Source: Dehalogenimonas sp. 4OHTPN
Lineage (GTDB): Bacteria > Chloroflexota > Dehalococcoidia > Dehalococcoidales > Dehalococcoidaceae
Assembly (NCBI RefSeq): GCF_040448695.1
Contig: NZ_CP159307.1
Span: forward strand, 558,001-622,000
Length of the DNA stretch: 64,000 nucleotides
Direction: 5' to 3'
Position numbers and translations under genes: made by a program. Below the pieces are notes generated by a model. The model saw only the letters and a list, made by a program, of their open reading frames with translations, was not told the DNA's origin and searched no databases. Within the stretch, counting starts at the first letter, position 1. Each line of letters begins with the position of its first letter. Shown in pieces: positions 19,862 through 47,051 of the stretch.

Positions 19862-20986
19862 ATGGCTAAGACGAGCTACGTTCCCAATCCGGCCAGGATC
19901 AAGGTTTTCGGCTGCGGCGGCGGCGGCTGCAATGCTATTACCCGCATGGTTCGGGAAGAGATCCAGGGCGTTGAATTCATCGCATTGAATACCGACGCCC
20001 AGGCTTTGGCGATCACCGAAGCTCCGGTTCGCGTTCAGTTGGGTGAAAGGGTTACCCGCGGCCTCGGCGCCGGCGGCGACCACACCATGGGTCAAAAGGC
20101 AGCTGAGGAGTCCCGGGATGACATCCGCGAATTGGTTGGCGGTTCCGATATGGTCTTCGTCACCGCCGGCATGGGCGGCGGCACCGGTACTGGTTCTGCC
20201 CCTATAGTCGCTGAAGAGGCCAAGAAGAGCGGCGCCCTGACCATCGCCGTAGTTACCAAACCTTTTGGCTTTGAGGGTTCGCACCGCACCAAGACTGCCA
20301 AAGAGGGCATCCAGAAATTGCTTGGCAAAGTCGATACCCTGATCATCATCCCGAACGATCGACTGCTAGAACTGTGCGATGCCAAAACCGGCGTCGATGC
20401 CGCCTTCAAGATGGCGGATGACGTGCTGCGCCATGGTGTCCAGGCTATTTCCGAGGTTATCACCGTTCCGGGCACCATCAACCTGGACTTCGCCGATGTC
20501 AAAGCGGTGATGAAGGATGCCGGGCCAGCCTGGATGAGCATTGGACGCGGCACCGGCAAGAACCGCGCTATGGATGCCGCCCGTGAGGCTTTGGCCTCCC
20601 CGCTGCTGGATGTCTCGGTAACCGGTTCCCGCGGCGTCCTGTTCAACATTGTCGGCCCCTCCGACCTGTCCCTCTTCGAGGTCAATGAAGCCGCTGAGGT
20701 CATCCGTAAATCAGTTGATCCTGATGCCAATATCATCTTCGGCGTGGGCACCAATAGCAATATGGGCAGTGATGTCCGCATCACCCTTATCGCCACCGGT
20801 TTCCACACCAATACTGAGGACGGCGGTATGGACGACGAACTGACCAACCAGCTGCGCGGCATCAAGAGCGAGGATGAATTAGATGTCCCGTCCTTCCTGC
20901 GCCGCCCGCTGTTTTCCCAGAATCGGGCCCCGGCCCCTGAAACCGTAAGGTCCAATCGGCCGCCGGTTCGCAATTCCTGGCGGTAA
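19862..20986 (+). CDS. ftsZ: Cell division GTPase FtsZ
   Basis: Tubulin-like GTPase that forms the Z-ring; 374 residues. It shows KVFGCGGGGCNAITRM, the GTP signature AGMGGGTGTGSAPIVAE and the T7 synergy loop INLDFADVKAVM. LDVPSFLRR near residue 345 resembles the conserved C-terminal peptide that binds FtsA or SepF, here followed by a short extra tail. GAGGAG lies upstream of the ATG, and a strong terminator follows. Confidence 0.98.
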   Translation: MAKTSYVPNPARIKVFGCGGGGCNAITRMVREEIQGVEFIALNTDAQALAITEAPVRVQLGERVTRGLGAGGDHTMGQKAAEESRDDIRELVGGSDMVFVTAGMGGGTGTGSAPIVAEEAKKSGALTIAVVTKPFGFEGSHRTKTAKEGIQKLLGKVDTLIIIPNDRLLELCDAKTGVDAAFKMADDVLRHGVQAISEVITVPGTINLDFADVKAVMKDAGPAWMSIGRGTGKNRAMDAAREALASPLLDVSVTGSRGVLFNIVGPSDLSLFEVNEAAEVIRKSVDPDANIIFGVGTNSNMGSDVRITLIATGFHTNTEDGGMDDELTNQLRGIKSEDELDVPSFLRRPLFSQNRAPAPETVRSNRPPVRNSWR

Positions 20987-21083: not shown

Positions 21084-22493
21084 ATGCCGGAAATCAAGAA
21101 ACAGGACTACTGCAAGGCGCTGCGGCAAGCAATTACCGCAGCTTCTTCCAGCAATTCACTGAAGAATAAACTGACTGCCCTGACTAGAATCACCTCGCGC
21201 TGTTTCGGGGCGGGTAGCGCCGTTGCCCTGCTGGATGCCACCGGCAGCCGTCTGATACATACGGCCCACTCACGGCTGCCGCCTTTTTATATCCAGAAGG
21301 GATTAATTGATGCTAGAAAAAGCTTGAATGAGACTGCTTTAGAAGAGATTGTCCATATCAAGGATGCAAAGTCGGACTCCAGGGTAGAATATCCTGAACC
21401 GGCCGCCAAGGCAGGGATCGTTGCTATTGTTGGCGTACCAGTCTTCACTCTGGGGCGTTGCACCGGCACGCTGAGGGTATACTTCCAGGATACCGCCTCG
21501 TTAACGACCCAGGATATGAGTTTTCTCAAAGCTATTGCCCAGCTGGCCGGGATGACCCTCGCCCACCAACCTGAAGAACGGACTGGCCAAACGAAAGACG
21601 CTTCGGTGGTGACCAAACCCTCTGAACTGGTGAACTTCGCCCATCCCAGCGAAGCTGAGTTTGCACACATCCTTGATTTCTATGGCGTTCCATGGTTTTA
21701 TGAACCGCGTTCTTTCCCAATCGGAAGAGAAATCAAAGGACCTCCGGAGATGTTTACACCGGACTTCTATTTACCGAGTTTTGATCTGTATGTTGAGCTA
21801 ACCACGATGAAGCAGTCGCTGGTAACTCAAAAAAACCGGAAACTGCGGCGGCTCAAGGACCTGTACCCGGAAATTAAAATCAGCCTTCTTTACAAAAATG
21901 ACTACGAACGCTTACTGGCCAAATACGGCATCGGACCGCTGGCTGAAACCCGCGCCCACGGGGTCAGCCGCATCCTGTATTCTGCGCCGGATATCGAAAT
22001 CCGGGTAAAAGAACTTGCCGGGCTTATTTCGGCTGACTACCATGACCGGCGGCCGGTACTGCTGGGCGTTCAGCGGGGATTTCTTTGCTTCATGGCCGAT
22101 CTAATCCGGCAAATAACGGTGCCGATGGACCTGGACTTCATCGCCATCAACTATTACGGCGGCACCAAGGAGGCGGGTGTGCGGGTGACCAAAGATGCCG
22201 ACCTGAATCTGACCGGCCGTCACATCCTGCTGGTCGAAGATATCGTGGATACCGGCATCACCCTGAACTATGTTCTGGAATATCTGAAATCCAAAAAGCC
22301 CCGGAGCCTGGCTGTCTGCGCGCTCCTCGACCGCAGGGCCAGGCGGCTCATGAACATAGAGTTAAATTATGTCGGTTTTGAAGTCCCTGATGAATTTGTC
22401 ATCGGCTACGGTCTCGATTATCACGAGGAATACCGCAACCTGCCGTTTATCGCTGTGCCGAAAATAAGCGGTCCGGAAAAAGCGGGATCATGA
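21084..22493 (+). CDS. GAF / PD-(D/E)XK-like / hypoxanthine phosphoribosyltransferase fusion
   Basis: 469 residues, three parts. About 20-165: GAF-like sensor fold (LTRITSRCFGAGSAVALLDA, then GIVAIVGVPVFTLGRCTGTL). About 185-275: a segment with Glu190/192, Asp227 (TPDFYLPSFDLYVELTTMK), Glu238 and nearby lysines, resembling a PD-(D/E)XK nuclease core; ELT replaces the usual ExK. About 300-460: a type I phosphoribosyltransferase of the HPRT group, with the PRPP loop LLVEDIVDTGITLNYVLEYL (382-401) and FVIGYGLDYHEEYRNLPFI. The PRTase should salvage purine bases; the nuclease-like assignment is inference. The ATG follows an extended -10 (TGATATACT) by 10 nt, so the transcript is nearly leaderless. 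Confidence 0.75.
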   Translation: MPEIKKQDYCKALRQAITAASSSNSLKNKLTALTRITSRCFGAGSAVALLDATGSRLIHTAHSRLPPFYIQKGLIDARKSLNETALEEIVHIKDAKSDSRVEYPEPAAKAGIVAIVGVPVFTLGRCTGTLRVYFQDTASLTTQDMSFLKAIAQLAGMTLAHQPEERTGQTKDASVVTKPSELVNFAHPSEAEFAHILDFYGVPWFYEPRSFPIGREIKGPPEMFTPDFYLPSFDLYVELTTMKQSLVTQKNRKLRRLKDLYPEIKISLLYKNDYERLLAKYGIGPLAETRAHGVSRILYSAPDIEIRVKELAGLISADYHDRRPVLLGVQRGFLCFMADLIRQITVPMDLDFIAINYYGGTKEAGVRVTKDADLNLTGRHILLVEDIVDTGITLNYVLEYLKSKKPRSLAVCALLDRRARRLMNIELNYVGFEVPDEFVIGYGLDYHEEYRNLPFIAVPKISGPEKAGS

Positions 22494-45254: not shown

Positions 45255-47051
45255 ATGCCTCTCGATGCCGGTTCTAAAGCGGCGCCGCAGCCGGAGATCG
45301 AACTCACCGCCAATGCCCGGCGCGTCCTGCAAAAGCGTTACCTGCGTAAGGACGCCGCGGGCCGGGTCATGGAGACGCCGGCGGAGATGTTTCGCCGCGT
45401 CGCCGGGGCGCTGGCCGCCGCCGAGCTTCAATACGATGCCAGCTCCGACGTCGCCGCCAAAGAAGCCGAATTCTACGGCGTCATGTCGCGCCTGGAATTC
45501 CTGCCTAATTCGCCGACGCTTTTAAACGCCAGTAAAAAGAACGGCCAGCTGGCCGCCTGCTTCGCCCTGCCGGTGGAAGACTCCGTCGAGGGCATTTTCG
45601 ATGCCATGAAGTACACCGCCCTGATCCACAAGAGCGGCGGAGGTACCGGCTACTCCCTGTCCCGGCTGCGTCCGGCGGGCGACATGGTTGACGGCGTCGC
45701 CGGCATCGCTGGCGGGCCGGTCAACTTCCTCTCGGCTCTGTCAGCCGCCTCTGACGTCATCCGGCAGGGGGGGGTGCGCCGGGGCTGCAGCATCGGCCTG
45801 TTGTCGGTGCACCATCCGGACATTTTAAAATTCATTGTCGCCAAAGACGACCCGCTGGCGCTGACCAATTTCTGCATCTCGGTCGCCGTGACCGATGACT
45901 TCATGAAAGCCCTGGAATCGGGGAGCGATTACGATCTCATCAACCCTCGGACAGGCAAACTGACCGGGCGCCTCAACGCCGTCGAGGTTTTTAAGAAGAT
46001 TGTCGCCCAATCCTGGAAGACCGGGGACCCCGGCCTGGTCTTTATCGACCGCGTCAACCGCGGCAATCCCACCCCCAACCTCGGTCCCATCGAGACAGTC
46101 ACCGGCTGTGCCGAGCAGGCCCTTCTGCCCTACGAATCCTGCAACCTGGGTTCGGTCAATCTGGCTAAAATGGTCAAACAGGCCGGCGAAAAGATGGTTG
46201 TCGACTACGATAAACTGGCCGCGGCGGTAAAGACCGGCGTGAACCTCCTTGATAACGTCATCGACGTCAACTGCTACCCGCTGCCGCAGGTCGAGGAAGT
46301 GACCAAACAGACCCGCAAGATCGGCCTGGGGGTTATGGGCTTTGCCGATATGCTGGTTCTTTTAGGCGTCCCCTACGATTCCTTCGAGGCGGTCAAGATC
46401 GCCGAGTACGTCATGGGCTTCGTCACCGAAAAGGCGCGGGACGCCTCGGAGGAGCTGGCTGAAAAACGAGGCGTCTTCCCGGCTTTTAAGGGCAGCGTCC
46501 ACGACGCCCCCGGCGGCCGCAGGCAGCGACACGCCTCCTGCACCACGGTCGCCCCCACCGGCACCATCTCGCTTATCGCCGGCTGCAACGTCGGCATTGA
46601 GCCGTTCTATGCCACCGTTTTCGTCAGGAACGTCCTGGACGGCGAGAATTTACTCGAGATTAATCCGTACTTCGAAGCCGCCGCCCGCCGCGAAGGCTTC
46701 TACTCCGGCGAGCTATTGCAGAAACTAGTGTCTTGCATTGACCTCACGCGGATTGACGGCGTGCCGGAGCGCATCAAGCGCGTCTACGTCACCTCAAACC
46801 GCATCAAGCCGGAATGGCACGTTCGCATCCAGGCCGCCTTTCAGCGCCACACCGACGGCGCCGTGTCCAAGATGACCAACGTACCCAATTCAACTACGCC
46901 CCAGGAGCAGGCAGACATCTTTCTCTTCGGCTACCGCGAGGGGGTCAAGGGCATCACCCTTTACCGGGATTCAAGCCGGGAGCTGGAATCGCTCTGCGCT
47001 GACGAAAAGGCTCACAAGCTGGTCGCTGAATACGTCGCCGCCAATCCTTGA
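45255..47051 (+). CDS. nrdJ: Class II ribonucleotide reductase, second copy, short form
   Basis: 598 residues, complete. It begins directly with the reductase domain: [40 protein letters not shown], then KSGGGTGYSLSRLRPAGDMV, the active-site strand LLPYESCNLGSVNLAKMV and VAPTGTISLIAGCNVGIEPF. No N-terminal cone-like domain is present, and the product stops at KGITLYRDSSRELES...AANP without the C-terminal Cys-pair tail common in class II enzymes for thioredoxin re-reduction. It may be reduced another way or use a partner. It is 6 bp after the Dph6-like gene and has no NrdR boxes upstream that I can see. Confidence 0.93.
   Translation: MPLDAGSKAAPQPEIELTANARRVLQKRYLRKDAAGRVMETPAEMFRRVAGALAAAELQYDASSDVAAKEAEFYGVMSRLEFLPNSPTLLNASKKNGQLAACFALPVEDSVEGIFDAMKYTALIHKSGGGTGYSLSRLRPAGDMVDGVAGIAGGPVNFLSALSAASDVIRQGGVRRGCSIGLLSVHHPDILKFIVAKDDPLALTNFCISVAVTDDFMKALESGSDYDLINPRTGKLTGRLNAVEVFKKIVAQSWKTGDPGLVFIDRVNRGNPTPNLGPIETVTGCAEQALLPYESCNLGSVNLAKMVKQAGEKMVVDYDKLAAAVKTGVNLLDNVIDVNCYPLPQVEEVTKQTRKIGLGVMGFADMLVLLGVPYDSFEAVKIAEYVMGFVTEKARDASEELAEKRGVFPAFKGSVHDAPGGRRQRHASCTTVAPTGTISLIAGCNVGIEPFYATVFVRNVLDGENLLEINPYFEAAARREGFYSGELLQKLVSCIDLTRIDGVPERIKRVYVTSNRIKPEWHVRIQAAFQRHTDGAVSKMTNVPNSTTPQEQADIFLFGYREGVKGITLYRDSSRELESLCADEKAHKLVAEYVAANP

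Follow-up and report, generated by a model that had tools for sequence, protein, structure and literature searches.

A GAF, PD-(D/E)XK-like and HPRT fusion protein of Dehalogenimonas and the linkage of its nuclease-fold domain to HPRT in Chloroflexota

What is the role of a purine phosphoribosyltransferase that shares one polypeptide with a sensor domain and a nuclease-like segment? The question is raised by a gene of Dehalogenimonas sp. 4OHTPN, which has a genome of 1.75 Mb in a single contig. The gene lies in the window analyzed here, i.e., the whole 64-kb stretch of DNA, and starts 97 bp after the end of ftsZ. The initial annotation described it as a three-part fusion next to ftsZ, consisting of a GAF-type sensor, a segment with residues spaced like a PD-(D/E)XK core, and a hypoxanthine phosphoribosyltransferase (HPRT), which might couple purine state to nucleic acid cleavage. 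The three-part architecture is confirmed: the gene is one intact ORF, the GAF and HPRT domains score above the Pfam cut-offs, and a nuclease fold is predicted between them (Table 1).

Table 1. Features of the fusion gene and its neighbor, with positions in the window
Feature	Position	Strand	Evidence
ftsZ, upstream neighbor of the fusion gene	19862..20986	+	TIGR00065, 6.9e-124
GAF - PD-(D/E)XK-like - HPRT fusion gene, 469 aa	21084..22493	+	Single uninterrupted ORF; full-length orthologues in Dehalococcoidia
GAF domain (residues 30-159), lowest conservation in the protein	21171..21560	+	PF01590, 5.6e-8; PF13185, 3.9e-7
T7 endonuclease I-like middle domain (residues 183-285), predicted PD-(D/E)XK nuclease fold	21630..21938	+	AF2 and profile matches
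Glu190, opposite T7 endonuclease I Glu20 (metal ligand)	21651..21653	+	126/126
Asp227 of the PD motif, opposite T7 Asp55	21762..21764	+	126/126
Glu238, opposite T7 Glu65	21795..21797	+	126/126
Thr240, at the site of the catalytic Lys67 of T7 endonuclease I (ExK to ExT)	21801..21803	+	Thr in 126/126
Lys250-x-x-Lys253, helix after the ExT strand	21831..21842	+	126/126 and 125/126
HPRT domain, residues 298-458	21975..22457	+	TIGR01203, 9.2e-53; PDB HPRT 1r3u, 8e-49
HPRT catalytic loop II region, shortened, Ser-Ser-Tyr to Asn-Tyr-Tyr	22143..22190	+	Comparison with lone HPRTs
PRPP-binding loop LVEDIVDTGITL, catalytic Asp389 kept	22230..22268	+	Sequence, alignment

Domain architecture and the predicted nuclease fold

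Besides its own genome, 17 related genomes contain long matches to the fusion gene, 16 of which are nearly full-length. The family alignment of the fusion protein has 90 members, and the dN/dS of the nuclease domain is ~0.03 between the fusion gene and its 90%-identical orthologue; the fusion is thus not a product of chance. The closest named homologues are from MAGs of Dehalococcoidia (Chloroflexota). The GAF domain reaches 33.8 bits with PF01590 (cut-off, 22.4 bits), and the HPRT domain exceeds both the Pfam cut-off of PF00156 (1.3e-26) and the equivalog cut-off of TIGR01203 (178.4 bits vs 150).

No Pfam family is found in residues 180 to 290 of the fusion gene's own protein. The AlphaFold (AF2) model of this middle domain, based on a 58-sequence alignment, has a pLDDT of 87 and takes the shape of an alpha-beta-beta-beta-alpha-beta PD-(D/E)XK core, so that the fold predicted for residues 180 to 280, where a nuclease core had been supposed, is indeed nuclease-like. 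The modeled elements of the middle domain are a helix (11-23), two strands (51-53 and 58-63), a helix (67-83), a strand (89-93), and a helix (94-103); two further, short strands occupy 27-28 and 34-35. The top structural neighbors in the Foldseek/VIA comparison are mostly nuclease folds (Bax1, VRR-NUC, I-Bth0305I, Vsr, and Hjc). The Bax1 nuclease (Z = 7.9, rmsd = 2.8 over 86 residues), VRR-NUC (Z = 7.4, rmsd = 3.6 over 87 residues), and I-Bth0305I (Z = 7.1, rmsd = 3.1 over 83 residues) are 10-21% identical to the middle domain, and since their Z values are below 8, the structure alone indicates only a common fold.

Sequence matches to PF05367, the PDB, and the PHROGs support the nuclease relation independently of the structural comparison. 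The best of them is T7 endonuclease I, which has the same order of helix-Glu, PD, and E; its structures (PDB 3cae) match the middle-domain profile with an E value of 8e-4, or 1e-5 when a broader profile is used. PF05367 (Phage_endo_I) is matched by 36 of 58 middle-domain members (best E value, 2e-6). The fusion gene's own middle domain does not match this family, the search of its own genome at an E value of 1 also gave no match, and the curated cut-off is not reached by the middle domain. All 44 members compared with PHROG 9019 ("Holliday junction resolvase") match it, and 42 match PHROG 945 (endonuclease). The phage matches are weak only, several of them being annotated as endonuclease I. 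On the structural side, the viral library gives 48 matches to the middle domain below 1e-3; many of those that have a name are nucleases, endonuclease I and a Holliday junction resolvase among them. T7 endonuclease I is not among the structural matches listed for the middle domain, which is no argument against the relation. From the profiles and the model, the middle domain is predicted to belong to the PD-(D/E)XK nuclease fold and to be T7 endonuclease I-like.

Active site of the nuclease-fold domain

In the family alignment of the fusion protein, conservation is highest in the nuclease domain, with a mean entropy of 0.89 bits per site vs 1.07 for HPRT and ~2 for GAF. Single residues were assessed on 126 middle domains obtained by sampling 400 Chloroflexota genomes evenly. 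Glu190, Asp227, and Glu238, which by alignment match the metal ligands of T7 endonuclease I, are invariant, and the conservation of Asp227 and Glu238 in orthologues, on which the first suggestion of a nuclease core depended, is complete in the 126 Chloroflexota homologues. Glu207 is also invariant in these domains. On the other hand, the catalytic lysine of the ExK motif is absent in all 126 members, in which Thr240 takes its place. Of the PD-(D/E)XK-like spacing proposed at first, the three acidic residues therefore stand, whereas the ExK lysine is a threonine and Glu192 is Glu or Asp in most members.

Cleavage by T7 endonuclease I needs Lys67, and the middle domain may therefore only bind its substrate; with threonine at this site in every member, either a lysine has migrated to serve catalysis or there is no catalysis. 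Lys250 and/or Lys253 are candidates that could stand in for the missing residue. The catalytic lysine shifts its sequence position among PD-(D/E)XK nucleases, and in influenza PA the catalytic Lys134 belongs to the helix that follows the E strand (PMC3893164). In an ungapped alignment that is not significant (E value, 0.85), D108, E119, and K134 of influenza PA are opposite Asp227, Glu238, and Lys253, and this cap-snatching endonuclease is a geometric precedent only and no proof of activity. The invariant Glu190, Asp227, Glu238, and Lys250, together with the nearly invariant Lys253, argue against a decayed nuclease.

Linkage to HPRT, gene neighborhood, and drift of the fused HPRT

The 126 domains comprise 21 GAF-nuclease-HPRT and 39 nuclease-HPRT proteins (60 fused) and 51 separate genes directly upstream of HPRT, which were defined by the same strand and an HPRT within 1 kb downstream, some pairs overlapping by a few bases; the other 15 are followed by no HPRT within 1 kb, and some of these are at contig ends. 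The core unit is nuclease plus HPRT, and the GAF domain, present in 21 of the 126 and absent outside Dehalococcoidia in the sample, is an addition limited to that class. In a tree of 85 HPRT sequences, the linked HPRTs cluster, with 2 changes between linked and lone (shuffling gives ~25 for the lone group) and 1 change between fused and adjacent, and a single fusion event followed by vertical inheritance is consistent with this tree.

The middle-domain gene is nearly always present in one copy per genome. The fusion gene is absent from 4 of 8 genomes of the Dehalogenimonas strain's genus and is therefore dispensable there. The best 80 contig matches are all titled Chloroflexi or Chloroflexota or bear a Dehalococcoidia name. 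Plasmid matches are found on the Thermomicrobium roseum megaplasmid, weakly inside a Miltoncostaea dnaE, and weakly in actinobacteria, and 2.9 million viral contigs contain 1 distant match. The GAF-less fusion of T. roseum DSM 5159 (TRD_RS14335) is annotated as hypoxanthine phosphoribosyltransferase (hpt) only. More remote relatives were also observed. Diverged homologues of the nuclease (L159:5971-6780 and L238:4511-4804, family f109) have no adjoining HPRT, and a lone HPRT is located elsewhere in the genome. A DnaE ORF of 2180 aa (L157:3461-10003) has seeming intein insertions, one of which contains a related PD-(D/E)XK domain with a classic ExK, and the match in dnaE of Miltoncostaea oceani is similar to it. 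A UvrD-like helicase (L158:4410-7238) carries an insertion that is remotely related to the nuclease domain and has ExF in place of ExK.

Although ftsZ does adjoin the fusion gene here, as first pointed out, it is not a typical neighbor, because in Dehalococcoidia the fusion usually follows nrdR-nrdJ. Of the 64 GAF fusions in the best-hit set, 42 are immediately preceded by nrdJ, the gene for the vitamin B12-dependent ribonucleotide reductase; most of these loci have nrdR ahead of nrdJ, and some have ftsZ farther upstream. An immediately preceding nrdJ is also found for 7 of the 21 GAF fusions in the phylum draw, 8 others having too little upstream sequence. In the genus of the fusion gene, the gene comes after ftsZ, directly or with a gap, and nrdJ is ~20 kb away, at the start of the window; in one genome of the sister genus (G008), ftsZ-nrdR-nrdJ is kept and the fusion gene is located elsewhere. 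Three paired loci have a Cytidylate_kin2 (cytidylate-kinase-like) gene upstream. Eight ORFs of the genome resemble class II ribonucleotide reductase (NrdJ), one being of ~920 aa and seven of ~600 aa; of the eight, two are in the window (45291-47018 on the + strand and 1-320 on the - strand) and six elsewhere; the window copy is without the TSCPD region, and related genomes of the genus have 2 to 11 NrdJ-like matches. A second FtsZ paralogue (G000:C1:1315948-1317030) is 71% identical to the FtsZ beside the fusion gene, and each of ten genomes searched has two FtsZ matches.

The PRPP loop was initially described as intact, and the E-D-x-x-D-T-G motif is present (EDIVDTG, residues 385-391, within VEDIVDTG, 384-391); a normal HPRT enzyme does not follow from it, because the catalytic loop is altered in fusions. 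Ser-Ser-Tyr of loop II is present in all 37 lone HPRTs and in none of 38 GAF fusions, and the Ser-Ser-Tyr/Phe motif is found in 48 of 51 nuclease-adjacent HPRTs and in 3 of 40 GAF-less fusions; this stretch is ~1-6 residues shorter in most fusions. The catalytic Asp is kept in the lone (37/37) and adjacent (51/51) HPRTs and in the GAF fusions, and is replaced by Asn, in one branch, in 29 of 40 GAF-less fusions; the cultured T. roseum has this Asn as well. Otherwise, the PRPP loop of the fusions is largely preserved. Given Asp389, the fusion gene's own HPRT may be enzymatically active. During catalysis, the HPRT active site is covered by loop II, whereas loops I and III bind (p)ppGpp, and an HPRT with a partial deletion of loop II still binds pppGpp (PMC6783271). 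The changes in the fusions would thus be more damaging to turnover than to the binding of ligands.

Among the 44 nuclease-linked genomes that were checked, the linked HPRT is altered in 30 of the 32 in which it is not the sole copy and in 0 of the 12 in which it is. The Fisher test for a canonical loop in sole HPRTs gives 4e-9 with relatedness ignored and a loop definition of our own, and since only one to two contrasts are independent, the association is a suggestive pattern only. In one nuclease-HPRT fusion (L233:3894-4823), the HPRT part is strongly degenerate (ADVVSTG in the PRPP loop) and the nuclease core is intact. In two genomes with GAF-less fusions (L280 and L281), some second HPRT copies are in open frames of ~670-715 aa and therefore are probably fused to another domain.

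Proposed function and comparison with known systems

The best explanation, to which we give slightly less than an even chance, is a metal-dependent nuclease in which an HPRT domain sensing purine, PRPP, or (p)ppGpp gates nucleic-acid cleavage. The coupling of purine state to cleavage that had been supposed is still the best-supported reading on the basis of the fold, the invariant triad, and the HPRT linkage, but the threonine in place of the ExK lysine counts against it. The nuclease-fold domain would bind nucleic acid, and branched or nicked DNA is a first guess from the relation to T7 endonuclease I, which cuts four-way junctions as a dimer. A metal would be held by Glu190, Asp227, and Glu238, and a lysine from the next helix (Lys250 or Lys253) would assist in cutting the nucleic acid. 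In the fusions, the main role of the HPRT domain would be to sense a ligand (PRPP, purine nucleotides, or (p)ppGpp) and so to gate the nuclease-fold domain, and GAF would provide a second input in Dehalococcoidia. The full-length model has a pTM of 0.42 and thus offers no domain contact in support of gating. The best reading would be a nuclease, or failing that a module that binds nucleic acid, with an HPRT domain that became or is becoming a purine, PRPP, or (p)ppGpp sensor; most simply, a nuclease or nucleic-acid binder may be under the control of a purine-type ligand. That a sensor derived from a salvage enzyme switches DNA or RNA cleavage throughout the phylum, and is tied to the ribonucleotide reductase operon in Dehalococcoidia, so that the supply of nucleotides would gate nucleic-acid processing directly, is a bolder proposal that we think doubtful, although its chance is appreciable.

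Thr240 makes a serious rival of a pseudo-nuclease that binds DNA or RNA and does not cut it, its HPRT-like domain controlling binding as in PyrR and PurR. The ExK lysine is lost in every member, the altered loop II and the Asp-to-Asn change in one branch are as expected of a ligand-binding regulator, and the conserved place after nrdR-nrdJ would fit a regulator of nucleotide supply; however, the three metal-ligand positions, which pure binders usually lose, are invariant, and the invariant helix lysines could substitute for the strand lysine, so we consider pure binding unlikely, if by no means negligible. The HPRT could also work as an enzyme in bifunctional salvage, in which the nuclease frees nucleotides, HPRT recycles purine bases, and the neighboring kinases and ribonucleotide reductase use the products. 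In families f67, f79, and f98, the genome has no HPRT other than the paired one, whose active site is fully canonical, and Cytidylate_kin2 and nrdJ are suitable neighbors. Nevertheless, HPRT is not the next step after a nuclease, because nucleases yield nucleotides and not free bases, and fused HPRTs have altered catalytic loops, with a second HPRT in nearly all those genomes; such an enzyme seems improbable to us.

A cellular Holliday-junction or flap resolvase with HPRT as a structural passenger would agree with the nearest relatives, T7 endonuclease I and phage Holliday junction resolvases, but RuvC is present in 10 of 10 genomes tested, on which ground a vacant Holliday resolvase role was rejected, and a passenger would not stay beside the nuclease, both fused and separate, across the phylum; this leaves the explanation a slim chance. 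Slimmer still, to the point of being hardly credible, is an anti-phage or mobile nuclease system. Such systems often contain PD-(D/E)XK domains, and the PADLOC defense profiles gave no clear match, the sole one being weak (E value, 0.0085 over 21 residues), whereas about one copy per genome, the vertical tree pattern, housekeeping neighbors, and the near absence from viral contigs all stand against it.

The initial remark that no named family has this GAF/nuclease/HPRT architecture agrees with our searches, which found neither such a family nor a paper on it; in the open-access literature (subscription papers and preprints being outside the search), no paper joins HPRT with such a domain in Chloroflexota. 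The single domains are known, whereas no description was found of the family, the nuclease-HPRT pairing, or its pattern. A nuclease-fold protein is tied genetically to HPRT across much of Chloroflexota under the sole annotation "hpt", and fused "hpt" genes in Chloroflexota genomes may be misannotated as salvage enzymes. The linkage suggests that the processing of DNA or RNA is connected with the state of the purine nucleotides. Should the HPRT domain be a sensor, purine or alarmone state would be linked to nucleic-acid cleavage directly at the protein level.

Compared with T7 endonuclease I, the middle domain has threonine for the ExK lysine and a fused or paired HPRT. The fusion HPRT resembles bacterial HPRT (TIGR01203) in keeping the PRPP loop and the purine-pocket residues, and differs from it in the short loop II without Ser-Ser-Tyr and in the attached nuclease and GAF domains. 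PyrR and PurR are phosphoribosyltransferase folds that serve as regulators, and by analogy the fusion may likewise use this fold as a nucleotide-responsive control domain; the output here, however, is a nuclease-fold domain, and homology is claimed for the phosphoribosyltransferase fold only.
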